Origin: Rhodobacter sp. Har01
Lineage (GTDB): Bacteria > Pseudomonadota > Alphaproteobacteria > Rhodobacterales > Rhodobacteraceae
Direction of reading: 5' to 3'
Assembly (NCBI RefSeq): GCF_020564565.1
Contig: NZ_JAJCTD010000001.1
Coordinates: 372,001-436,000, forward strand
Length of the DNA: 64,000 nucleotides
Shown here: one piece after another, positions 3,390 through 44,446 of the stretch
Numbering within the stretch: the stretch's first letter is position 1
Layout: every line of letters begins with the position of its first letter
The notes under the pieces: generated by a model
The model's database searches: none
Told to the model about the DNA's origin: nothing
What the model saw: only the letters and a program-made list of their open reading frames with translations
Translations under genes and position numbers: made by a program

Positions 3390-4960
3390 GCGAAGGGAAA
3401 CCGCAGATGAACGATCTGGGCGAGGCTTGCGAACCGGCACGAGCGCGGCGGTCGGGGGGGCGGTCGGCGCGGGTGGCGCTGCGGGCGGCGCCACTGGCTG
3501 ACGACGTGCGGCCGGTGCGGCCGGGGATGCCGGGCGGGCGGTATCGGCCGCTGGACCCGGCCGGGGTGGAGCGGATTCACCAATCGGCGCTGCAGGCACT
3601 GGAGGAGATCGGGCTTTCCAACGCTCCGGCAAGCGGGGTGGAGATTCTGACCGGGGCGGGGGCCATCCAGGGCGACGACGGGCGGATAAGGTTTCCGCGC
3701 GCACTTGTCGAGGACATGCTGGCGGTGGCGGGGCGCAACATCACGCTGCACGCGCGCGATCCGAAGTTCGACCTGCAGCTGTCGGGGACCAACGTGCATT
3801 TCGGCACCGCAGGGGCGGCGGTGCATGTGGTGGACCTGGAGCGGAACGAATACCGCGACAGCACCGCGCAAGACCTGCATGACGCGGCACGGATCGTGCA
3901 GAACCTTGACAACGTTCACTTCTACCAGCGGACCATGGTCTGCCGGGATGTGGTGGACAACAAGGAGATGGACCTCAACACGCTTTATGCCTGCCTTGCC
4001 GGCACCACCAAGCACGTCGGCACCAGCATCTTCGACCCCGACCATGTGGCCGATTGCTTCGAGATGCTGCACATGGTGGCGGGGGGCGAGGCGGCCTGGC
4101 GCGATCGGCCCTTCGTCAGCAACTCGAACTGCTTTGTCGTGCCGCCGATGAAGTTCGCCGAGGAATCCTGCAAGGTGATGGAGGATTGCATCCGCCGCGG
4201 CATGCCGATGCTGCTGTTGTCGGCGGGGCAGGCCGGGGCCACCGCGCCGGCGCCGATCGCGCTGGCCATCGTGCAGGCGGTGGCGGAATGCCTCGCGGGC
4301 GTGGTCTACGTCAACGCCATCCGGCCCGGCGCTCCGGCGATCTTCGGCACCTGGCCATTTGTCAGCGACCTGCGGACCGGGGCCATGTCGGGCGGATCGG
4401 CCGAGCAAGCGCTGCTGACCGTGGGCTGTGCGCAGATGCACCGGTTCTATGACCTGCCGGGGGGGGCGGCGAGCGGCATTTCCGACAGCAAGCTGCCCGA
4501 CATGCAGGCGGGCTGGGAGCAGGCGATCACCAACACCCTTGCCGGCCTGTCGGGGCTGAACATGTGCTATGAGGCGGTGGGGATGCATGCCTCGCTGCTG
4601 GGCTTTTCCCTGGAAAGCCTTGTGCTGGGCGACGATATCCTGGGCCAGGTGATGCGGTTGGTGCGCGGCATCGACGTGACCGAGGATTCCACCAGCATCG
4701 AGGCGATGAAGCAGGTTTGCCTGGGCGGGCCGGGGCATTATCTGGGCAGCGACCAGACCCTGCGGCTGATGCAGACGGAATACATCTACCCCACGCTTGG
4801 CAACCGGATGAGCCCGAAGGAATGGGTCGAGGCCGGCAAGCCGCAACTGTTGGACCGTGCCATCGCGCGCAAGAACGAAATCCTTGCCAAGGCGGGGTGC
4901 ATGGTGGACGCTGAAATCGACCGCGCCATCCGTGAAAAGTTCAATATCTACTTCAAGTGA
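3386..4960 (+). CDS. trimethylamine methyltransferase (MttB) family protein, non-pyrrolysine
   Basis: This 524-residue protein belongs to the MttB/COG5598 family. Members transfer a methyl group from quaternary or tertiary amines to a corrinoid protein; known non-pyrrolysine members act on glycine betaine, proline betaine or carnitine. The frame is read through with no in-frame amber codon, so it is not the archaeal-type pyrrolysine enzyme. The start at 3386 is inside the previous stop (ATGA). Another ATG lies seven codons on, at 3407. The first 45 residues are Arg/Ala-rich and probably disordered. No corrinoid-binding protein is encoded in the window, so the methyl acceptor is unclear. Confidence 0.85.
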   Translation: MSEGKPQMNDLGEACEPARARRSGGRSARVALRAAPLADDVRPVRPGMPGGRYRPLDPAGVERIHQSALQALEEIGLSNAPASGVEILTGAGAIQGDDGRIRFPRALVEDMLAVAGRNITLHARDPKFDLQLSGTNVHFGTAGAAVHVVDLERNEYRDSTAQDLHDAARIVQNLDNVHFYQRTMVCRDVVDNKEMDLNTLYACLAGTTKHVGTSIFDPDHVADCFEMLHMVAGGEAAWRDRPFVSNSNCFVVPPMKFAEESCKVMEDCIRRGMPMLLLSAGQAGATAPAPIALAIVQAVAECLAGVVYVNAIRPGAPAIFGTWPFVSDLRTGAMSGGSAEQALLTVGCAQMHRFYDLPGGAASGISDSKLPDMQAGWEQAITNTLAGLSGLNMCYEAVGMHASLLGFSLESLVLGDDILGQVMRLVRGIDVTEDSTSIEAMKQVCLGGPGHYLGSDQTLRLMQTEYIYPTLGNRMSPKEWVEAGKPQLLDRAIARKNEILAKAGCMVDAEIDRAIREKFNIYFK

Positions 4961-7439: not shown

Positions 7440-7493
7440 GGTTTGCGGGGCGGGGAAGACTCGGGCCGCAAGGGCTTTGCCAAAGGTGCCGCC

Positions 7494-8600
7494 ATGACCG
7501 ATTCGCCCGAGGCCCGCGTCGCGCGGATGCTGCATCACCGCAAGGCGGCGTTGCAGCAGGGCGATCCGGTGGTGCCGCCGATCACGGCATCGGCCACCTT
7601 CCACCTGCCGCATGTGCAGGCGGGCGGGCAGGTCTATGGTCGCAACGGCAACCCCAGCTGGGAAGCGGTCGAGGCGCAACTGGCGATCCTGGAAGACGCC
7701 GAGACGGTCGGTTTTCCCAGCGGCATGGCGGCCATCGCGGCAGCGCTGTTCGCCACGCTGCGGGCCGGGGACCGGCTGGTGATCCCCTCGGACGGCTACT
7801 ACGTCACCCGAGTGCTGTCGCAGGGGTTCCTGAAGCCGCTTGGGGTCGAGGTGATTGGCCTGCCGACGCGGGCCTATGACAGCTCGGATTTCGCCGGGGC
7901 TGCGGTGGTCTATCTGGAGACGCCATCCAATCCGGGCCTTGACGTGGTGGACATCGCGGCGGTCGCAGCGCGGGCCAGGGCCGCGGGGGCGGTGGTCATT
8001 GCCGACAACACCACGATGACGCCGCTCCTGCAAAGGCCGCTGGACCTGGGCGCCGATCTGGTGGTGGCGGCCGACACCAAGGCGCCCTCGGGGCATTCGG
8101 ACGTGCTCTTCGGCCATGTCGCCGGGCGGGATGCGGCGCGGATGGCGCGGGTGCGCGACTGGCGGCGGATGGCCGGGGCGATTCCGGGGCCGTTCGAGGC
8201 CTTTCTGGTGCACCGGGGGCTGGAGACTCTGGAGCTGCGGCTGGAGCGGATGTGCGCCAGCGCCCAGAGGATTGCCGAGCGGCTGGCGGCGCATCCGGCG
8301 GTGCGCGGGGTGCGGTTCCCCGGTCTGCCGGGGGATGAGTCCTTTGCGGTTGCGCGGGCGCAGATGGCAGCGTCGGGGTTCCTGATCGGCTTCGAGCTGG
8401 CCGATGCAGGTGCGGCGGAGGGATTTCTGGCGCGCTGCCCGTTGATCGAGCAGACCACCAGCTTTGGCGCCACCCATACTTCGGGCGAGCGGCGGGCGCG
8501 CTGGGGCGATTCGGTTTCCGAGGGGTTCGTGCGGCTGTCGGTCGGGATCGAGCCGGTCGAGGTGCTGTGGGCGGCGATGGCCGAGGCGCTGGCGGGGTAG
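7494..8600 (+). CDS. cystathionine gamma-lyase family PLP enzyme
   Basis: This 368-residue protein belongs to the Cys/Met-metabolism PLP family. The cofactor region reads VIADNTTMTPLLQRPL and then AADTKAPSGHSDVLFG, in which the lysine forms the PLP aldimine. Members eliminate or exchange thiol groups at the gamma or beta carbon (cystathionine gamma-lyase, methionine gamma-lyase, O-acylhomoserine sulfhydrylases). Length is slightly below the usual 380-400. It is separated from the cluster upstream by a structured gap of about 140 bases, so it may be a separate unit. The exact reaction is not decidable here. Confidence 0.82.
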   Translation: MTDSPEARVARMLHHRKAALQQGDPVVPPITASATFHLPHVQAGGQVYGRNGNPSWEAVEAQLAILEDAETVGFPSGMAAIAAALFATLRAGDRLVIPSDGYYVTRVLSQGFLKPLGVEVIGLPTRAYDSSDFAGAAVVYLETPSNPGLDVVDIAAVAARARAAGAVVIADNTTMTPLLQRPLDLGADLVVAADTKAPSGHSDVLFGHVAGRDAARMARVRDWRRMAGAIPGPFEAFLVHRGLETLELRLERMCASAQRIAERLAAHPAVRGVRFPGLPGDESFAVARAQMAASGFLIGFELADAGAAEGFLARCPLIEQTTSFGATHTSGERRARWGDSVSEGFVRLSVGIEPVEVLWAAMAEALAG

Positions 8601-8607
8601 GGGAAGG

Positions 8608-8655
8608 CGATTTCCGAAGTCGGAAATCGCGCACGGAATTCGACTTCGAATTCCG
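8608..8655. repeat. 48-bp twin-hairpin element, copy 1
   Basis: Two 22-base inverted repeats are separated by the four bases CGCA. The first (8608-8629) has ten-base arms CGATTTCCGA/TCGGAAATCG around AG. The second (8634-8655) has arms CGGAATTCGA/TCGAATTCCG around CT. The apical hexamers GAAGTC and GACTTC are reverse complements of each other. It lies between the convergent ends of the PLP-enzyme gene and crtC. Matching copies are at 31971 and 36078. Confidence 0.9.
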
Positions 8656-8666
8656 GTTCCCTGCCG

Positions 8667-9608
8667 TCAGCCGGGGTGCGTCCAGCCCGACCGTCGCGGC
8701 ACCCGCACCGCGATCATCGGCTTGATCCAGGGTGAGCGGAAGCGGTCCAGGTCCAGCGCCTCATGCACGCCGGTCGTCTCTTCGCCGAACAGTCGCGTCG
8801 TCACCTGCGATCGGCAGTAGAACGGCGCATCCAGCATCGGCGCAGCCTGGCGGGGCATATGGCCGTCGTCCGAACGGGTTTCCCGCCGCACCCGCCAGGC
8901 CGAGGGTTTGAACCGGGTGAGCGGCGGCGGGTCGATCTGGTTGACACGGCCATCGGGCAGCACCTCGACCCCCAGTTCCAGCGTGGTGCCGTCGCGTCGG
9001 GTGGCGTCGTAGAAACACAGGGCGCGATCCTTCATCGGGAAGCGGCCCCAGGTCCAGAAGTTGAAATCGGCCTCCAGCGCCGCCGCGCCGAAGTTGGCGT
9101 CGAAATAGCCGTGGCCTTCCCAGCGGTGGCCGGGCGAGATGTCGACCTTGATCCGCGCGGTGGGGGCAAAGGGGCGCCAGGTGTGGCGGCCGTCTGGCGT
9201 CAGCAGGACTTCGGTCGAAGTCACCGCCTCGGGGATGAGTGTGATGGTGCCTCGCACCGGGCCAAGCCGGGGCAGGGCGCCCATTTCGTTCACCTCGACC
9301 ACCAGTTCGGTGCCGGTCCAGGTGACGGACGAGGGGCCGACGGTCAGCCGGTCATGGGTCTGCCGCAGCGCCGCGCGGCCGCGGTCGGTCATGGTGAAGC
9401 GACCGTCCGGGCCATAGGTGGCGACGTTGATGCAGACGTGGTTCTGCGGCGAGGCGCGTCCCGCCCAGGCGTACCAGGGCGAGAACACAGAGCCGATGAA
9501 GGCGATTACCGAGACCGATCGGTTCCCGTCGTCGGAGATCCCGTCGAGGTACCACCAGGCGTAGCCGTCCGGTTGGACGTAGACCGAGAACCAAGGTCCC
9601 GCACCATC
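8667..9608 (-). CDS. crtC: hydroxyneurosporene synthase / carotenoid 1,2-hydratase (start unresolved)
   Basis: CrtC adds water to the 1,2 double bond of neurosporene-type carotenoids on the way to spheroidene. Family landmarks are GYAWWYLDGISDDG, AFIGSVFSPWYAWAG, FTMTDRGRAAL and the tryptophan-rich DFNFWTWGRF. The conserved N-terminus is in this frame, yet no ATG, GTG or TTG occurs in frame between the distant ATG at 9884 (deep inside crtD) and the conserved region. The next in-frame ATG is at 9392, well inside the conserved domain. The end given (9608) is therefore only the approximate edge of homology. It overlaps crtD in another frame by about 100 bases. A missing or extra base, an unusual start or a frameshift from crtD are all possible. 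Confidence 0.8.
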   Translation of the reverse strand, partial: DGAGPWFSVYVQPDGYAWWYLDGISDDGNRSVSVIAFIGSVFSPWYAWAGRASPQNHVCINVATYGPDGRFTMTDRGRAALRQTHDRLTVGPSSVTWTGTELVVEVNEMGALPRLGPVRGTITLIPEAVTSTEVLLTPDGRHTWRPFAPTARIKVDISPGHRWEGHGYFDANFGAAALEADFNFWTWGRFPMKDRALCFYDATRRDGTTLELGVEVLPDGRVNQIDPPPLTRFKPSAWRVRRETRSDDGHMPRQAAPMLDAPFYCRSQVTTRLFGEETTGVHEALDLDRFRSPWIKPMIAVRVPRRSGWTHPG

Positions 9609-11065
9609 GCTTCGGCCGCGAACTTCCCGGAGCGGGTTGCCATCGGCACCCCCGCCCCCGGATGCGCCCCGCCCCCGCAGAGGTAGAGTCCCCGCAACTG
9701 GCTGCGCGCCTGCGGCTTGGCGAAGGCTGCCAGCGTTCCTTCCGGGCTGCGGCCGTAGATTGCCCCCTGCGACGCCGGGAACAGCTCTTCCAGCGTCGTC
9801 GGCGTGGTCAGCATGTTCGGTCCCGGTGGCGGATCGAAGGTCAGGCCCATCGCCGCCAGTTTCGGGAAGGTTCTCAGCGCGCATGCCTTGGCCTCATCGG
9901 GTTCGACGTGCCCTGCCGGGGCGTTGACAATGATCTCGAACCGTTCCAGCGCCCTTGGCGGCTTGCCGATCGCCCGGTCTTCGGCGCAGACGTAAAGCGT
10001 CGGGTCGTCCTGCGGCTTGCCGGACAGCAGCGGGTCGAACTCGGCCTCGGGGCGCCTGGAGAAGAACAGGTTGTGGTGGCCCAGCTTGGCGGCCAACGGG
10101 CCCTTCGGCGTGGCCGCGAAGGCCCAGACCTGGGCCGACAGGCTGCGCGGGCCGACGGCCTGCGGCGAGACGGCGTTCTTGGCGGTCGGGCCAAGGTAGC
10201 CCTGCGACAGGGCCGCCGGGTCGCCGTTGAAGATCACCGCCTTGCCTTCCAGCACCCGGCCGTCTTCCAGCGACACCGACATGGTGCCATCCGTCGCGCG
10301 GCCGATGTTGCGGGCCTTGACGCCGTAGTGGAAGGTCACGCCGTTGCGGACAGCCAGTGTCGCCAGCGCCTTGGCCAGCGCCGACATGCCGCCGTCGATG
10401 CCCCAGACGCCCGCCGCTTCGGCCTGCCAGATCAGCGCCATCACGGCCGGGGTCTTCGAGGGCCGGCCGCCGACGTAAGTGGCATAGCGGCCGAACAGCT
10501 GGATCAGCCGCGGGTCCTTGAAATGCGCCTTCAAGAGCGAGGGCAGCGAGCGGCCGGGCAGCAGCGCGGGCCAGAGCTTGGGCGATTTCATCGCGGCCTT
10601 GGCGACCGAGGGGATCTCGGGGCTGGAGGACTGCATGACCGGAGCGCGGAAGGTCTTGTAGAGGCCCGAGGTCAGGTCATAGAACTTGCGGAACCCCGAG
10701 GCCTCGTCCTCGCCGGCGAACTTCATGATCGCCTTCTCGGTCAGCCGCGGGTCGGCGAAGATGTCCAGCGACGAGCCGTCAGGCCAGAAGTGACGCGCCA
10801 GGATGGATTGCGGGACAAGCCGCACATGGTTGTCGAGCTTCTCGCCGAATCGCTCGAAGAGCGAATCGAACTCGGAGCGGAAGGTCAGGACGGTGGGTCC
10901 GGTATCGACCGGGCCTGCCACGGTGCGCAGGGTGCGGGCTTTGCCGCCGGGGGAATCGGCCGCCTCGACGACGGTCACGTTCCATCCCGAAGCGCGCGCG
11001 GAAAGGGCGGCGGAGAGGCCCCCGAAACCGGCGCCGATGATGATGACGCGAGGAGTGTTTTCCAT
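9506..11065 (-). CDS. crtD: methoxyneurosporene (hydroxyneurosporene) dehydrogenase
   Basis: CrtD is a phytoene-desaturase-family flavoprotein that introduces the 3,4 double bond of spheroidene-type carotenoids. The 519-residue product starts with the FAD motif GAGFGGLSAALSARASGW near residue 10 and ends with the family signature YLCGGGAHPGAGVPMATRSG. About 45 residues follow this signature, a Ser/Thr-rich tail (SRSTSNRTATPGG) that overlaps crtC. Start 11065 is chosen over an upstream ATG (11101) because it matches the family N-terminus. It is divergent from crtE across a region with two PpsR-type boxes. Confidence 0.93.
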   Translation of the reverse strand: MENTPRVIIIGAGFGGLSAALSARASGWNVTVVEAADSPGGKARTLRTVAGPVDTGPTVLTFRSEFDSLFERFGEKLDNHVRLVPQSILARHFWPDGSSLDIFADPRLTEKAIMKFAGEDEASGFRKFYDLTSGLYKTFRAPVMQSSSPEIPSVAKAAMKSPKLWPALLPGRSLPSLLKAHFKDPRLIQLFGRYATYVGGRPSKTPAVMALIWQAEAAGVWGIDGGMSALAKALATLAVRNGVTFHYGVKARNIGRATDGTMSVSLEDGRVLEGKAVIFNGDPAALSQGYLGPTAKNAVSPQAVGPRSLSAQVWAFAATPKGPLAAKLGHHNLFFSRRPEAEFDPLLSGKPQDDPTLYVCAEDRAIGKPPRALERFEIIVNAPAGHVEPDEAKACALRTFPKLAAMGLTFDPPPGPNMLTTPTTLEELFPASQGAIYGRSPEGTLAAFAKPQARSQLRGLYLCGGGAHPGAGVPMATRSGKFAAEAMVRDLGSRSTSNRTATPGGTSTGSPTTGTDRSR

Positions 11066-21443: not shown

Positions 21444-21478
21444 GTGCCGTGTGGAGCCTTCCACACGGCACTTTTTTT
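21444..21478 (+). terminator. strong rho-independent terminator of the puf operon
   Basis: Perfect twelve-base arms GTGCCGTGTGGA (21444-21455) and TCCACACGGCAC (21460-21471) with the loop GCCT are followed by seven T (21472-21478). It separates puf from dxs, although in Rhodobacter some read-through into dxs is likely. Confidence 0.93.
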
Positions 21479-27167: not shown

Positions 27168-27191
27168 AAGGCGCGCCCGCGGGCGCGCCTT
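27168..27191 (-). terminator. rho-independent terminator
   Basis: A perfect 24-base palindrome (half AAGGCGCGCCCG) is followed on the minus strand by CTTTTTCTTTTCC. It ends the small gene at 27215-27541, and could also slow transcription arriving from the other side. Confidence 0.85.
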
Positions 27192-30753: not shown

Positions 30754-31959
30754 ATGTCACTTGCCCACGGCCACCCCTACCTGGCGATCCCCGGCCCTTC
30801 GGTCATGCCCGAGCGGGTGCTGCGCGCCATGCATCGGGGCAGCCCGAACATCTACGAAGGGCCTCTGGTCGAGATGGTGGCGGGCCTGTGGCCCGACCTG
30901 CGGGCGGTGGCGGGCACCACGGCGCATGTGGCGGCCTATATCGGCAACGGCCATGCCGGATGGGAGGCGGCGAATGCCAACCTGTTCTCGCGCGGCGAGC
31001 GGGCGCTGGTGCTGGCAACCGGCCAGTTCGGGCTGTCCTGGGCCAACCATGCCCGGCAGATGGGGATCGAGGTCGAGGTTCTGGACTTCGGCCGCGCGGC
31101 GCCGGCGGACCCGGGCCGGCTGGAAACGGCGCTGCGGGCCGACCGGGAAGGCCGGATCAAGGCGGTGCTGACGACACATGTCGATACCGCGACGACCGTG
31201 CGCAACGACATTCCGGCGCTGCGCGCGGCGATGGATGCCGCGGGGCACCCGGCGCTGCTGGCGGTGGATTGCATCGCCTCGCTGGCCTGTGACGAATACC
31301 GGATGGACGACTGGGGCGCGGATGTCACCGTGGCGGCCAGCCAGAAAGGGCTGATGACGCCACCGGGCCTGGCCTTCGTCTGGTTCAGCGAGGCGGCGCG
31401 GCTGCGCTGCGGCGAGGGCGACCTGGCGACGCCCTATTGGCGTTGGGGGCCGCGGGCCGAGCCCGCCGAGTTCTGGCAATACTGGGACGGCACCGCGCCG
31501 ACGCATCACCTTTACGGCCTGCGCGAGGCGCTGACGATGCTGGTGCACGAGGAAGGCCTGGCACAGGCCTGGGCGCGGCACGAGGCGCTGGCGCGGGTGG
31601 TCTGGGCGGCCTTCGAGGCCTGGGGCACAGGCAATCCGGCGATTGCGATGAACGTCCCGCGGCCCGAGTGGCGCGGGCGGTCGGTCACCGCGGCCCGGCT
31701 GGGTGCGCCGGATGCGGCGCGGCTGCGCGCCTGGTGCGAACGCCACGCCGGGGTGACGCTGGGCATCGGCCTCGGCGCGGCCACGCCCGAGGACCCGAAG
31801 GCCGAGGGGGCGCTGCGGGTGGCGCATATGGGACATGTGAACGCGCATATGACGCTGGGCGTGCTGGCGGTGATGGAGGCCGGGCTGAAAGCTTTGGGGA
31901 TAGCGCATGGCGATGGCGCGCTGGAGGCGGCGGCCCAGGTGGTTGCGGACCGTGCCTGA
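30754..31959 (+). CDS. class-V aminotransferase, serine/alanine-glyoxylate type
   Basis: This 401-residue PLP enzyme belongs to the AGXT/serine-glyoxylate aminotransferase group. The N-terminus reads YLAIPGPSVMPERVL, the acidic PLP contact lies in AVDCIASLACDEY, and the Schiff-base lysine is in VAASQKGLMTPPGLAF near residue 199. It should transfer an amino group to glyoxylate or pyruvate. The ATG at 30754 is preferred because the family starts close to GHPYLAIPGP; an upstream ATG lies at 30721. One of the 48-bp twin-hairpin elements follows 12 bases after the stop. Confidence 0.87.
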   Translation: MSLAHGHPYLAIPGPSVMPERVLRAMHRGSPNIYEGPLVEMVAGLWPDLRAVAGTTAHVAAYIGNGHAGWEAANANLFSRGERALVLATGQFGLSWANHARQMGIEVEVLDFGRAAPADPGRLETALRADREGRIKAVLTTHVDTATTVRNDIPALRAAMDAAGHPALLAVDCIASLACDEYRMDDWGADVTVAASQKGLMTPPGLAFVWFSEAARLRCGEGDLATPYWRWGPRAEPAEFWQYWDGTAPTHHLYGLREALTMLVHEEGLAQAWARHEALARVVWAAFEAWGTGNPAIAMNVPRPEWRGRSVTAARLGAPDAARLRAWCERHAGVTLGIGLGAATPEDPKAEGALRVAHMGHVNAHMTLGVLAVMEAGLKALGIAHGDGALEAAAQVVADRA

Positions 31960-31970
31960 CGCCAGGGCGC

Positions 31971-32018
31971 CGGAAATCGAAGTCGATTTCCGTCCACGAT
32001 TTTCGACTTCGAAAATCG
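31971..32018. repeat. 48-bp twin-hairpin element, copy 2
   Basis: The first inverted repeat (31971-31992) has arms CGGAAATCGA/TCGATTTCCG around AG. The linker is TCCA. The second (31997-32018) has arms CGATTTTCGA/TCGAAAATCG around CT. It aligns with the reverse complement of copy 3, including the linker, and all stem differences are paired changes. It sits between convergent genes (aminotransferase and exoD). Confidence 0.9.
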
Positions 32019-32024
32019 TTCTGG

Positions 32025-32753
32025 TCAGAACGCCCCGGTGATGACGAAGATCGCCGATTTCAGCAGCGCGTAGCCCAGACCGCCGACATAGATCAGCGCC
32101 CCTGCCGCGGCCAGCATGCCCAGGATGATCCAGAGCCCGTCGCGTTCCAGCACGCCCAGCCCGATCAGGCAGATCGCCACCGAAGGCGCCATGTTCGCGA
32201 AGGGGATCGGCAGCGCCAGGGCGATGGACAGCACCAGGCACAAGGCGCCGATCAGCCGCTGCGACGCCGGCCAGGCCAGCGGCTGGAGCCGGGCTTTCAA
32301 CAACCGTTCGGCCCGCTCGAGCCAGGGGTTGATCCGCTGCACCATGCCCGCGAAGGTTGCCCGCGGCATGGATCGTCGGGCGATGAAGTCGGGCAGCCAG
32401 GGCGACTTGCCCAGCATCATCTGGGTGGACAGAAAGATCAGCGGCAGGCCCAGCACGCCGGCAAGCCCCGGCGGCGACGGCAGGATGTTGGGAAAGGCGA
32501 AGATCAGCAGCAGCGCCCCGAAGGCACGCGAGCGCATCGTCTCGAGCATGTCGGCGATGGCCACCCGCTCGCGGCCCGGCTCCTCGGCCAAGGCGGTCAG
32601 GATCTCGGTCAGCCGCGGCGGGCGCGGGCGCGGGGTGCCGGCGTCTTCGGCCGCGTGGCCGTCGGGCGTGGACCACAGCGCATCCGGAATCACCGGCTGT
32701 CCGGGCGGAGCGACCGGTTCGCCGGCGGTGTCTTGGTCCTTCGGGTCTTGCAT
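32025..32753 (-). CDS. ExoD family membrane protein
   Basis: This 242-residue protein has a disordered Pro-rich N-terminus and then the ExoD domain: LTEILTALAEEPGRERVAIA, the membrane-associated FGALLLIFAFPNILP and three to four hydrophobic helices to the C-terminus. ExoD in rhizobia affects exopolysaccharide production and alkaline tolerance; the biochemical role is unknown. It lies 22 bases downstream of the DMT permease gene. Confidence 0.85.
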   Translation of the reverse strand: MQDPKDQDTAGEPVAPPGQPVIPDALWSTPDGHAAEDAGTPRPRPPRLTEILTALAEEPGRERVAIADMLETMRSRAFGALLLIFAFPNILPSPPGLAGVLGLPLIFLSTQMMLGKSPWLPDFIARRSMPRATFAGMVQRINPWLERAERLLKARLQPLAWPASQRLIGALCLVLSIALALPIPFANMAPSVAICLIGLGVLERDGLWIILGMLAAAGALIYVGGLGYALLKSAIFVITGAF

Positions 32754-35807: not shown

Positions 35808-35847
35808 GCATAACGTTTCGTTAACGATGCTGCGGCAGGCTGGCGGC

Positions 35848-36075
35848 ATGACCTCAGCCCTGCACGCCACGCCACAGCAGTTCTATTCCGAGCTTTTCGG
35901 ATCGCGCGCTGCGCGCAACGGCGAGGTCATTCGCCGCAAGATTCGGGATGTTGAGCGCATTGTCGGTCGCGAAGCATTTCTTCAAGAGATGCAGCGGCGC
36001 GGCTACGCGGTCGTCGAGAATGCCGGTCAGTATGTGATCTTCTGCAACCGAGATCCCATTCGCCGCCTGGCGTGA
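35848..36075 (+). CDS. small conserved alphaproteobacterial protein
   Basis: This 75-residue basic protein contains the patterns QQFYSELFGSRAARNG, IRRKIRDVERIVGREAF and VIFCNRDPIRRLA. Similar small proteins in Rhodobacterales are sometimes labelled phosphoribosylanthranilate isomerase, which the size and sequence do not support. The function is unknown. An in-frame ATG also lies at 35827. A twin-hairpin element follows two bases after the stop. Confidence 0.6.
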   Translation: MTSALHATPQQFYSELFGSRAARNGEVIRRKIRDVERIVGREAFLQEMQRRGYAVVENAGQYVIFCNRDPIRRLA

Positions 36076-36077
36076 CC

Positions 36078-36125
36078 CGATTTCCGAAGTCGGAAATCGT
36101 GGACGGAATTCGACTTCGAATTCCG
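36078..36125. repeat. 48-bp twin-hairpin element, copy 3
   Basis: It is the same as copy 1 except for the linker (TGGA instead of CGCA). Arms are CGATTTCCGA/TCGGAAATCG (36078-36099) and CGGAATTCGA/TCGAATTCCG (36104-36125). Here it lies between two genes in the same direction, 63 bases before the lyxose isomerase-like start, so it would be transcribed in the intergenic RNA. Confidence 0.9.
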
Positions 36126-36188: not shown

Positions 36189-36875
36189 ATGAAACGGTCC
36201 CGCATCAACGCGATCATGTCAGCCGCGGACGAGATGATCCGCCGGCACGGCTTCGTTCTGCCGCCCTTCGCCTTCTGGTCTCCGGACCAGTTCCGCGCCC
36301 GTCGCGACACCGCCCGACGGGTGATCGAGGCCCGCTGCGGTTGGGACATCACCGACTACGGCCAGGGCCGGTTCGACGAGATGGGGTTGTTCCTGTTCAC
36401 CCTGCGCAACGGCAGCTTGGCCGACCTGCAGCGCGGTGGCGGCATGTGCTATGCCGAAAAGCTGCTGATCAGCCGGCAGGACCAGCTTTCCCCCATGCAC
36501 ACCCATATCCTGAAGGCCGAGGACATCATCAACCGGGGCGGCGCCACCCTTGTGGTGCAGCTATACGGCAGTGACGACGCCGGCCGCTTTGCCGAAGACC
36601 GCGGCGGTCGGGTGCGCTGCGACGGCATCGACCGCGCCTATGGCCCGGGCGAGAAGCTGCGCCTTGCCCCCGGAGAAAGCGTCACCCTGATGCCCGGCGA
36701 CTGGCATGCCTTCTGGGGCGAAGGCGGCGACGTGCTGATCGGCGAGGTCTCGACCGTCAACGACGACCTGACCGACAACATCTTCCGCGAGCCTATCGGC
36801 CGCTTTGCCGACGTCGAGGAGGACGAGCCGCCGACCCATCTTCTGGTCAGCGACTACGACCGCTGGCTGGCCTGA
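36189..36875 (+). CDS. D-lyxose isomerase-like cupin protein
   Basis: This 228-residue cupin matches the D-lyxose ketol-isomerase family in length and pattern. The metal-binding region is SPMHTHILKAEDIINRGG near residues 99-116, and the last histidine is in MPGDWHAFWGEGG. It should interconvert D-lyxose and D-xylulose (and perhaps mannose and fructose). Start 36189 follows GGAGGGCGGCGC. Its 3' end overlaps the WYL regulator on the other strand by 29 bases. Confidence 0.8.
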   Translation: MKRSRINAIMSAADEMIRRHGFVLPPFAFWSPDQFRARRDTARRVIEARCGWDITDYGQGRFDEMGLFLFTLRNGSLADLQRGGGMCYAEKLLISRQDQLSPMHTHILKAEDIINRGGATLVVQLYGSDDAGRFAEDRGGRVRCDGIDRAYGPGEKLRLAPGESVTLMPGDWHAFWGEGGDVLIGEVSTVNDDLTDNIFREPIGRFADVEEDEPPTHLLVSDYDRWLA

Positions 36876-38269: not shown

Positions 38270-38298
38270 GCAAGGGCCGCCCGATGGGCGGCCCTTGC
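38270..38298. terminator. bidirectional hairpin between convergent genes
   Basis: Thirteen-base perfect arms GCAAGGGCCGCCC and GGGCGGCCCTTGC surround GAT. The U-tract is missing on both strands, so termination may be weak or rho-aided. It separates GST from the L,D-transpeptidase. Confidence 0.65.
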
Positions 38299-44422: not shown

Positions 44423-44446
44423 AAAGGGGGCTTCGGCCCCCTTTTT
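44423..44446 (+). terminator. rho-independent terminator of pntAB
   Basis: Arms AAAGGGGGC (44423-44431) and GCCCCCTTT (44436-44444) have a TTCG loop and are followed by two more T. It separates pntAB from the ABC importer. Confidence 0.92.

Follow-up and report, generated by a model that had tools for sequence, protein, structure and literature searches.

In GC-rich alphaproteobacteria a recognisable terminator of the hairpin-plus-U type is often missing, and the place and manner in which their transcripts end are therefore poorly predicted. For the terminators of B. cereus, compensatory evolution has been described, with a stronger constraint on those that are bidirectional (PMC5381666). Further, it has been proposed that hairpins in tandem or in clusters act as terminators that depend less on a U tract (PMC8355165), and in Haemophilus and Neisseria the DNA-uptake sequence forms terminators as an inverted repeat at gene ends (Kingsford 2007, PMC1852404). 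Here we describe a 48-bp element at 8608-8655 of the window, i.e. the whole stretch of 64,000 nucleotides of Rhodobacter sp. Har01 DNA that was analysed. From comparisons of its copies and their neighbourhoods, we consider it probable that the element is a bidirectional, tandem-hairpin, terminator-like 3'-end signal lying just past stop codons.

The unit consists of two palindromic units of 22 bases and a 4-base spacer (22-4-22). It occurs three times in the window (Table 1), with copy 2 in the orientation opposite to copies 1 and 3. This layout and the loops GAAGTC and GACTTC are in all three copies just as a sequence-only reading of the window had described them. The pattern GAAGTC N16-24 GACTTC is found 3 times, against a mean of 0.02 in dinucleotide shuffles, none of which reached 3. 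Folded as RNA, the 48-mer (-24.5 kcal/mol, z -5.3) forms a pair of hairpins, each with 9 bp and a loop of 4 nt, and each hairpin folded singly has the same shape (-11.7 kcal/mol). The spacer takes the forms TGCA, TGGA, CGCA, CGGA, GGGA and TGGC among the copies.

Copies 1 and 3 are identical in 44 of 44 hairpin bases, so the paired stem changes of the window come from copy 2 alone: C-G to T-A in hairpin A, and T-A to A-T in hairpin B. These changes, from which the sequence-only reading had argued for covariation, are indeed present; the inference from three copies was thin, because it rested on this one variant copy.

The gene calls come from a model of codon usage for which the window served as training set. 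All three copies are intergenic and lie 2 to 11 bases past a stop codon, in agreement with the earlier remark that they adjoin gene ends and are never inside a gene.

Table 1. Parts of the three window copies and the genes beside them.
Feature	Position	Strand	Basis	Remark
Copy 1 hairpin A: CGATTTCC GAAGTC GGAAATCG	8608..8629	+	sequence, fold	
Copy 1 spacer CGCA	8630..8633	+		
Copy 1 hairpin B: CGGAATTC GACTTC GAATTCCG	8634..8655	+	sequence, fold	
Pyrimidine tail GTTCCC after copy 1	8656..8661	+		
GGGGAA, mirror of the copy 1 tail	8600-8605			on the opposite side
Copy 2 hairpin B variant (CGGAAATC stem)	31971..31992	-		same stem in the orthologous slot of G003
Copy 2 spacer	31993..31996	-		TCCA on +, TGGA on -
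Copy 2 hairpin A variant (CGATTTTC GAAGTC GAAAATCG)	31997..32018	-		
Copy 3 hairpin A	36078..36099	+		as in copy 1
Copy 3 spacer TGGA	36100..36103	+		
Copy 3 hairpin B	36104..36125	+		as in copy 1
Cys/Met metabolism PLP-dependent enzyme	7443..8600	+	Pfam PF01053	stop ends 7 bp before copy 1
Convergent gene without Pfam match	8667..9488 (open frame to 9884)	-		stop 11 bp past copy 1
Class-V aminotransferase	30754..31959	+	Pfam PF00266	stop ends 11 bp before copy 2
ExoD-family gene, convergent	32025..32753	-	Pfam PF06055	stop 6 bp past copy 2
Small gene, 82 aa, without Pfam match	35827..36075	+		stop ends 2 bp before copy 3
D-lyxose isomerase, next tandem gene	36189..36875	+	Pfam PF07385	start 63 bp past copy 3

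A few other features were seen around these loci. The convergent neighbour of copy 1 (8667-9884, minus strand) differs in two members of the genus, G002 and G003, and the locus has therefore been rearranged in one of the lineages. In a third member, G012, a single hairpin GGAAACGCATTGCGTTTCC stands just past the orthologue of gene 7443-8600 (L265), and it may be that species' own repeat. Other gene ends of the window carry GC-rich, terminator-like hairpins (e.g. AAGGCGCGCCCGCGGGCGCGCCTT and GCAAGGGCCGCCCGATGGGCGGCCCTTGC; 27168-27191, 38270-38298 and 44423-44444), and a perfect 12-bp inverted repeat, GTGCCGTGTGGAGCCTTCCACACGGCAC, is located at 21444-21471 in a 274-bp tandem gap. The MttB-family gene at 3473-4960 (Pfam MTTB) contains a match to Rfam PYLIS_3, the pyrrolysine insertion element of mttB, at 4478-4577 (plus strand). 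Its frame is open without an in-frame TAG, and the match is probably coding conservation and not a pyrrolysine signal.

Three copies turned out to be a gross undercount. In the 3.9-Mb genome GAAGTC N18-22 GACTTC has 25 matches, 24 of them the element and one a chance match, while the reversed control pattern has 0. All but one of these 24 exact-loop copies are identical in all 44 hairpin bases, with variation in the 4-base spacer. When two mismatches are allowed, about 60 type A hairpins are found; the loop differs in 27 (GAAGCC and GAATTC are among the divergent forms) and the stem in only one. A covariance model gives 170 matches at E up to 1, overlapping and both-strand hits counted, and the twin hairpin is present at 78 of the 79 candidate sites that were fetched. 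The tail of one copy (L121) is T-rich.

Hairpins with the six-base loop are perfect in 117 of 120 cases, compared with 23 of 32 for those with a four-base loop, and the six-base-loop subfamily therefore looks young beside an older four-base-loop one. This subfamily, with the stems CGATTTCC and CGGAATTC and loops such as GAAGTC, appears to have recently multiplied to about 60 copies in this lineage.

Related twin hairpins exist in most members of the genus and are patchy in Rhodobacteraceae. Within the genus, 12 of 13 members match the covariance model at E up to 1, most of them at about 2e-4 or better, with 58 matches in G003 and 19 in G002. Across the family, the model has matches at E up to 1e-4 in 16 of 248 genomes, counting the present one; one of the 16 has 23 copies. 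The relatives use the stems CGATTTCC, CGGAATTC, CGGAAATC, CGATTTTC, CGGAGTTTT and CGGTTTCTG with unrelated loops, and the six-base loops of our genome occur in none of the 13 genus mates. In the PR2 MAG (L185 and L063, around L185:3344-3410) there are three successive AT-rich hairpins with different stems, i.e. triple arrays and not twins. Rfam has no match at its gathering score, and no description of the element was found by text searches among the papers covered. Carriage by phages or plasmids was rejected, as viral contigs and plasmids contain no match.

The alignment used to study the stems was built by a search that takes structure into account, which biases it towards intact, paired stems; in its 55 matches 14 of the 18 pairs change on both sides, and 99.8% of the cells are paired. 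The covariation score is 0.316, compared with 0.105 after shuffling and at most 0.085 with the partners slid. Our genome also has weaker-scoring copies in which a pair is G-T or mismatched. Two slots that were located through neighbouring genes, independently of structure, are in agreement with covariation: the stem in the copy-1 slot is CGGAAATC in G002 versus CGGAATTC in G003 (a T-A / A-T swap), and in the copy-2 slot our genome has CGATTTTC versus CGATTTCC in G003. The covariation is real, it is found in the stems of other genomes, and the claim of the sequence-only reading that the structure is under selection is supported in so far as the structure is maintained.

Two further ideas on the stems were given up. 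Selection at the DNA level, suggested by an absence of G-T pairs, was dropped because the lower-scoring copies hold G-T and mismatched pairs and the high-scoring set is biased. An outer stem enclosing both hairpins, i.e. a three-way junction, was rejected: there is no covariation between the two flanks (z -0.47 for the duplex, and z 1.7 by a cruder score). The family-wide flank consensus of the element, GGGAA / TTCCC, is therefore treated as a tail consensus only.

The positions of the elements also speak for a function. Among 70 elements of our genome, 34 lie between convergent, 31 between tandem and 5 between divergent genes, and some of the divergent calls look like missed small genes. The corresponding gene pairs in the window number 9 (15%), 43 and 9. 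The convergent excess is significant (P = 2e-11), as is the divergent deficit under a model of random insertion in intergenic DNA (P = 2e-5). A stop codon is at most 30 bp away in 63 of the 65 elements with an adjoining 3' end (median 11 bp), and the suspected bias towards gene ends is thus both real and strong.

Further, tandem copies sit in wide gaps, with a median of 154 bp versus 52 bp for tandem gaps generally, and are therefore at the borders of transcription units. The element begins a median of 12 bp past the upstream stop and is followed by a median of 84 bp up to the next gene. An example is the 7.3-kb stretch at 128.6-135.9 kb of contig C4, where three copies mark the ends of successive transcription units and bracket the run ribBA-ribH-nusB (gene names from reading the proteins) with none inside it.

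Orthologous gene ends in the genus were located through the genes adjoining the elements of our own genome (G000). Past the DAHP synthase gene, twin AT-rich hairpins are found in G000, G003 and G002, the latter with different stems, whereas a canonical hairpin with a T tract stands there in G009, G008, G005, G013 and G007 (identified by script) and in G010, G006 and G012 (identified by eye). The copy-1 slot, past the PLP enzyme, has twins in G000, G003 and G002 and AAAAGGGGGCCGTTTGGCCCCCTTTT in G007; the glmM slot has twins in G000 and G003 and canonical terminators in G012 and G009. In three orthologous slots there is thus a twin in some relatives and a canonical terminator in others, and the twin thus fills the place of an ordinary terminator. 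This replacement, a comparative argument, is the strongest evidence on function. In G003 the copy-2 slot holds a twin; in G002 it holds one AT-rich hairpin.

The reading that we favour can be put as follows. As RNA polymerase leaves a gene, two hairpins (about -12 kcal/mol each) would form successively behind it, and after them would come a short tail of pyrimidines, in most cases G-TTCCC. The two successive hairpins would destabilise the elongation complex, and this weak tail would be available on both strands. The opposite strand would give the same kind of twin hairpin from the same 48 bp, and because each hairpin is palindromic one copy could serve both genes of a convergent pair. In this way the element would substitute for the GC-rich hairpin and T tract found in several relatives at the corresponding gene ends. 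Termination is missing from the list of roles in the sequence-only reading, and it is the role that the comparison of orthologous slots favours; we infer termination itself, as opposed to protection of the 3' end only, from sequence.

Of the features of a canonical intrinsic terminator, a stable RNA hairpin just 3' of the coding region is present, and a U tract directly after the hairpin is absent, the tail consensus being G-TTCCC. A standard terminator scan did not flag the elements. Since the same scan misses those canonical terminators in which the T tract is paired within the stem, this result is weak evidence either way. The five elements called divergent also weigh against termination, as do orthologous slots in which relatives lack any hairpin, such as the CBS transporter slot of G012.

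The main rival is that the element protects Rho-made ends. According to this view transcription ends downstream (e.g. through Rho) and exonucleases trim the mRNA back to the twin hairpin, which then protects it in the manner of a REP/BIME-like 3' stabiliser. The same gene-end position, the stable hairpins and the lack of a U tract would all be expected, and GC-rich genomes are known with many REP-type palindromes without T tails (PMC12306157). However, the element fills the slots of canonical intrinsic terminators in relatives, and it is found where operons border on each other with a wide gap, not in the narrow gaps between genes of one operon. The "processing or stabilising signal" proposed earlier therefore stays as a possible but less likely reading, with the orthologous slots favouring termination.

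It is rather unlikely that the copies are a functionless mobile or repetitive palindrome of MITE or REP type, gathering at gene ends because insertion is harmless there. The patchy distribution in the family, the young look of one subfamily and its roughly 60 near-identical copies in one species, with those loops in none of the 13 genus mates, agree with such mobility. So does the CBS transporter slot, which is filled by a twin in our genome while G012 has no hairpin and only 7 bp between the convergent stops. However, convergent junctions make up 11% of the intergenic DNA yet hold 49% of the copies, and copies in orthologous slots have been retained across species, their stem changes compensated. 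The flanks show no conservation beyond the GGGAA/TTCCC tendency and no evident target-site duplication, and no transposase lies between neighbouring copies in the C4 stretch. Finally, none of 14 genus genomes gave a Y1_Tnp (PF01797) match in a search whose control was positive in 5 reference genomes. A RAYT origin is accordingly rejected for the genus, and the earlier proposal of a RAYT nicking site is not supported in our genome.

About 80 copies lie near stops, very often between tail-to-tail genes, and in terminator slots of several relatives, and from this we regard the element as a probable two-way signal of gene ends, undescribed and spreading. How the copies spread is something we infer. 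The copy-2 slot and the DAHP-synthase slot keep the hairpin order of G003, but their loops are both of the six-base form of our genome. This hints at conversion of older twin hairpins in place, although replacement by a new copy may also account for it. Quite tentatively, one may picture a terminator that spreads by itself. Such a family of short repeats would multiply without an encoded RAYT, either by capturing the slots of ordinary terminators or by conversion of older twins where they stand, and the termination signals of a genome would then evolve in concert.

The roughly 60 left hairpins, of which 27 have a different loop but whose 16 stem positions are essentially free of uncompensated change, could also be what a dimeric DNA-binding protein would read, for chromosome organisation or insulation. 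We find this improbable: the stem words differ between species and copies with pairing kept, the tie to stop codons is strict, and there is no protein candidate. That the loops GAAGTC and GACTTC kiss, as had also been suggested, is hardly credible, since they are complementary in 24 copies but do not covary: where the left loop is GAAGCC, GAATTC or GACTTC, the right one has not changed to match it, and the loops of relatives are unrelated.

A repeat that replaces canonical terminators at orthologous ends, as this one appears to do, is a directly testable terminator class for Rhodobacteraceae and would be a case of a terminator behaving like a repetitive element. Its covariance model could serve as a ready annotation of operon borders.

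In comparison with known systems, the element resembles the DNA-uptake-sequence terminators in being a repeated genomic word placed as an inverted repeat at gene ends. Unlike theirs, its words are only mildly over-represented outside the elements, far from the density of uptake sequences: they occur 7-8 times versus 1.1 expected in 189 kb, and about 3 of each are the window elements. The uptake-sequence reading was rejected because these counts are too low, with no strong genome-wide excess of a single word. With REP, BIME and REPIN sequences the element has in common that it is a palindromic intergenic repeat in inverted pairs, biased towards gene 3' ends and present in tens of copies; it differs in being one fixed twin unit, without a RAYT (Y1_Tnp) in the genus genomes searched. 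Nor was a GTAG-type REP foot seen in it.

In function the element would resemble bidirectional intrinsic terminators, which also have a hairpin just past the stop, common to convergent genes, in the same orthologous slots, and which in B. cereus show the same compensatory evolution of stems (PMC5381666). However, the element has two AT-rich hairpins and not one GC-rich hairpin, its tail is TTCCC and not a T tract, and its fixed stem words are repeated genome-wide. Cluster or tandem-hairpin terminators (PMC8355165) likewise have two adjacent hairpins near the stop and little dependence on a U tract; their hairpins are heterogeneous, whereas the element is one repeat family with a fixed layout and fixed stem words.
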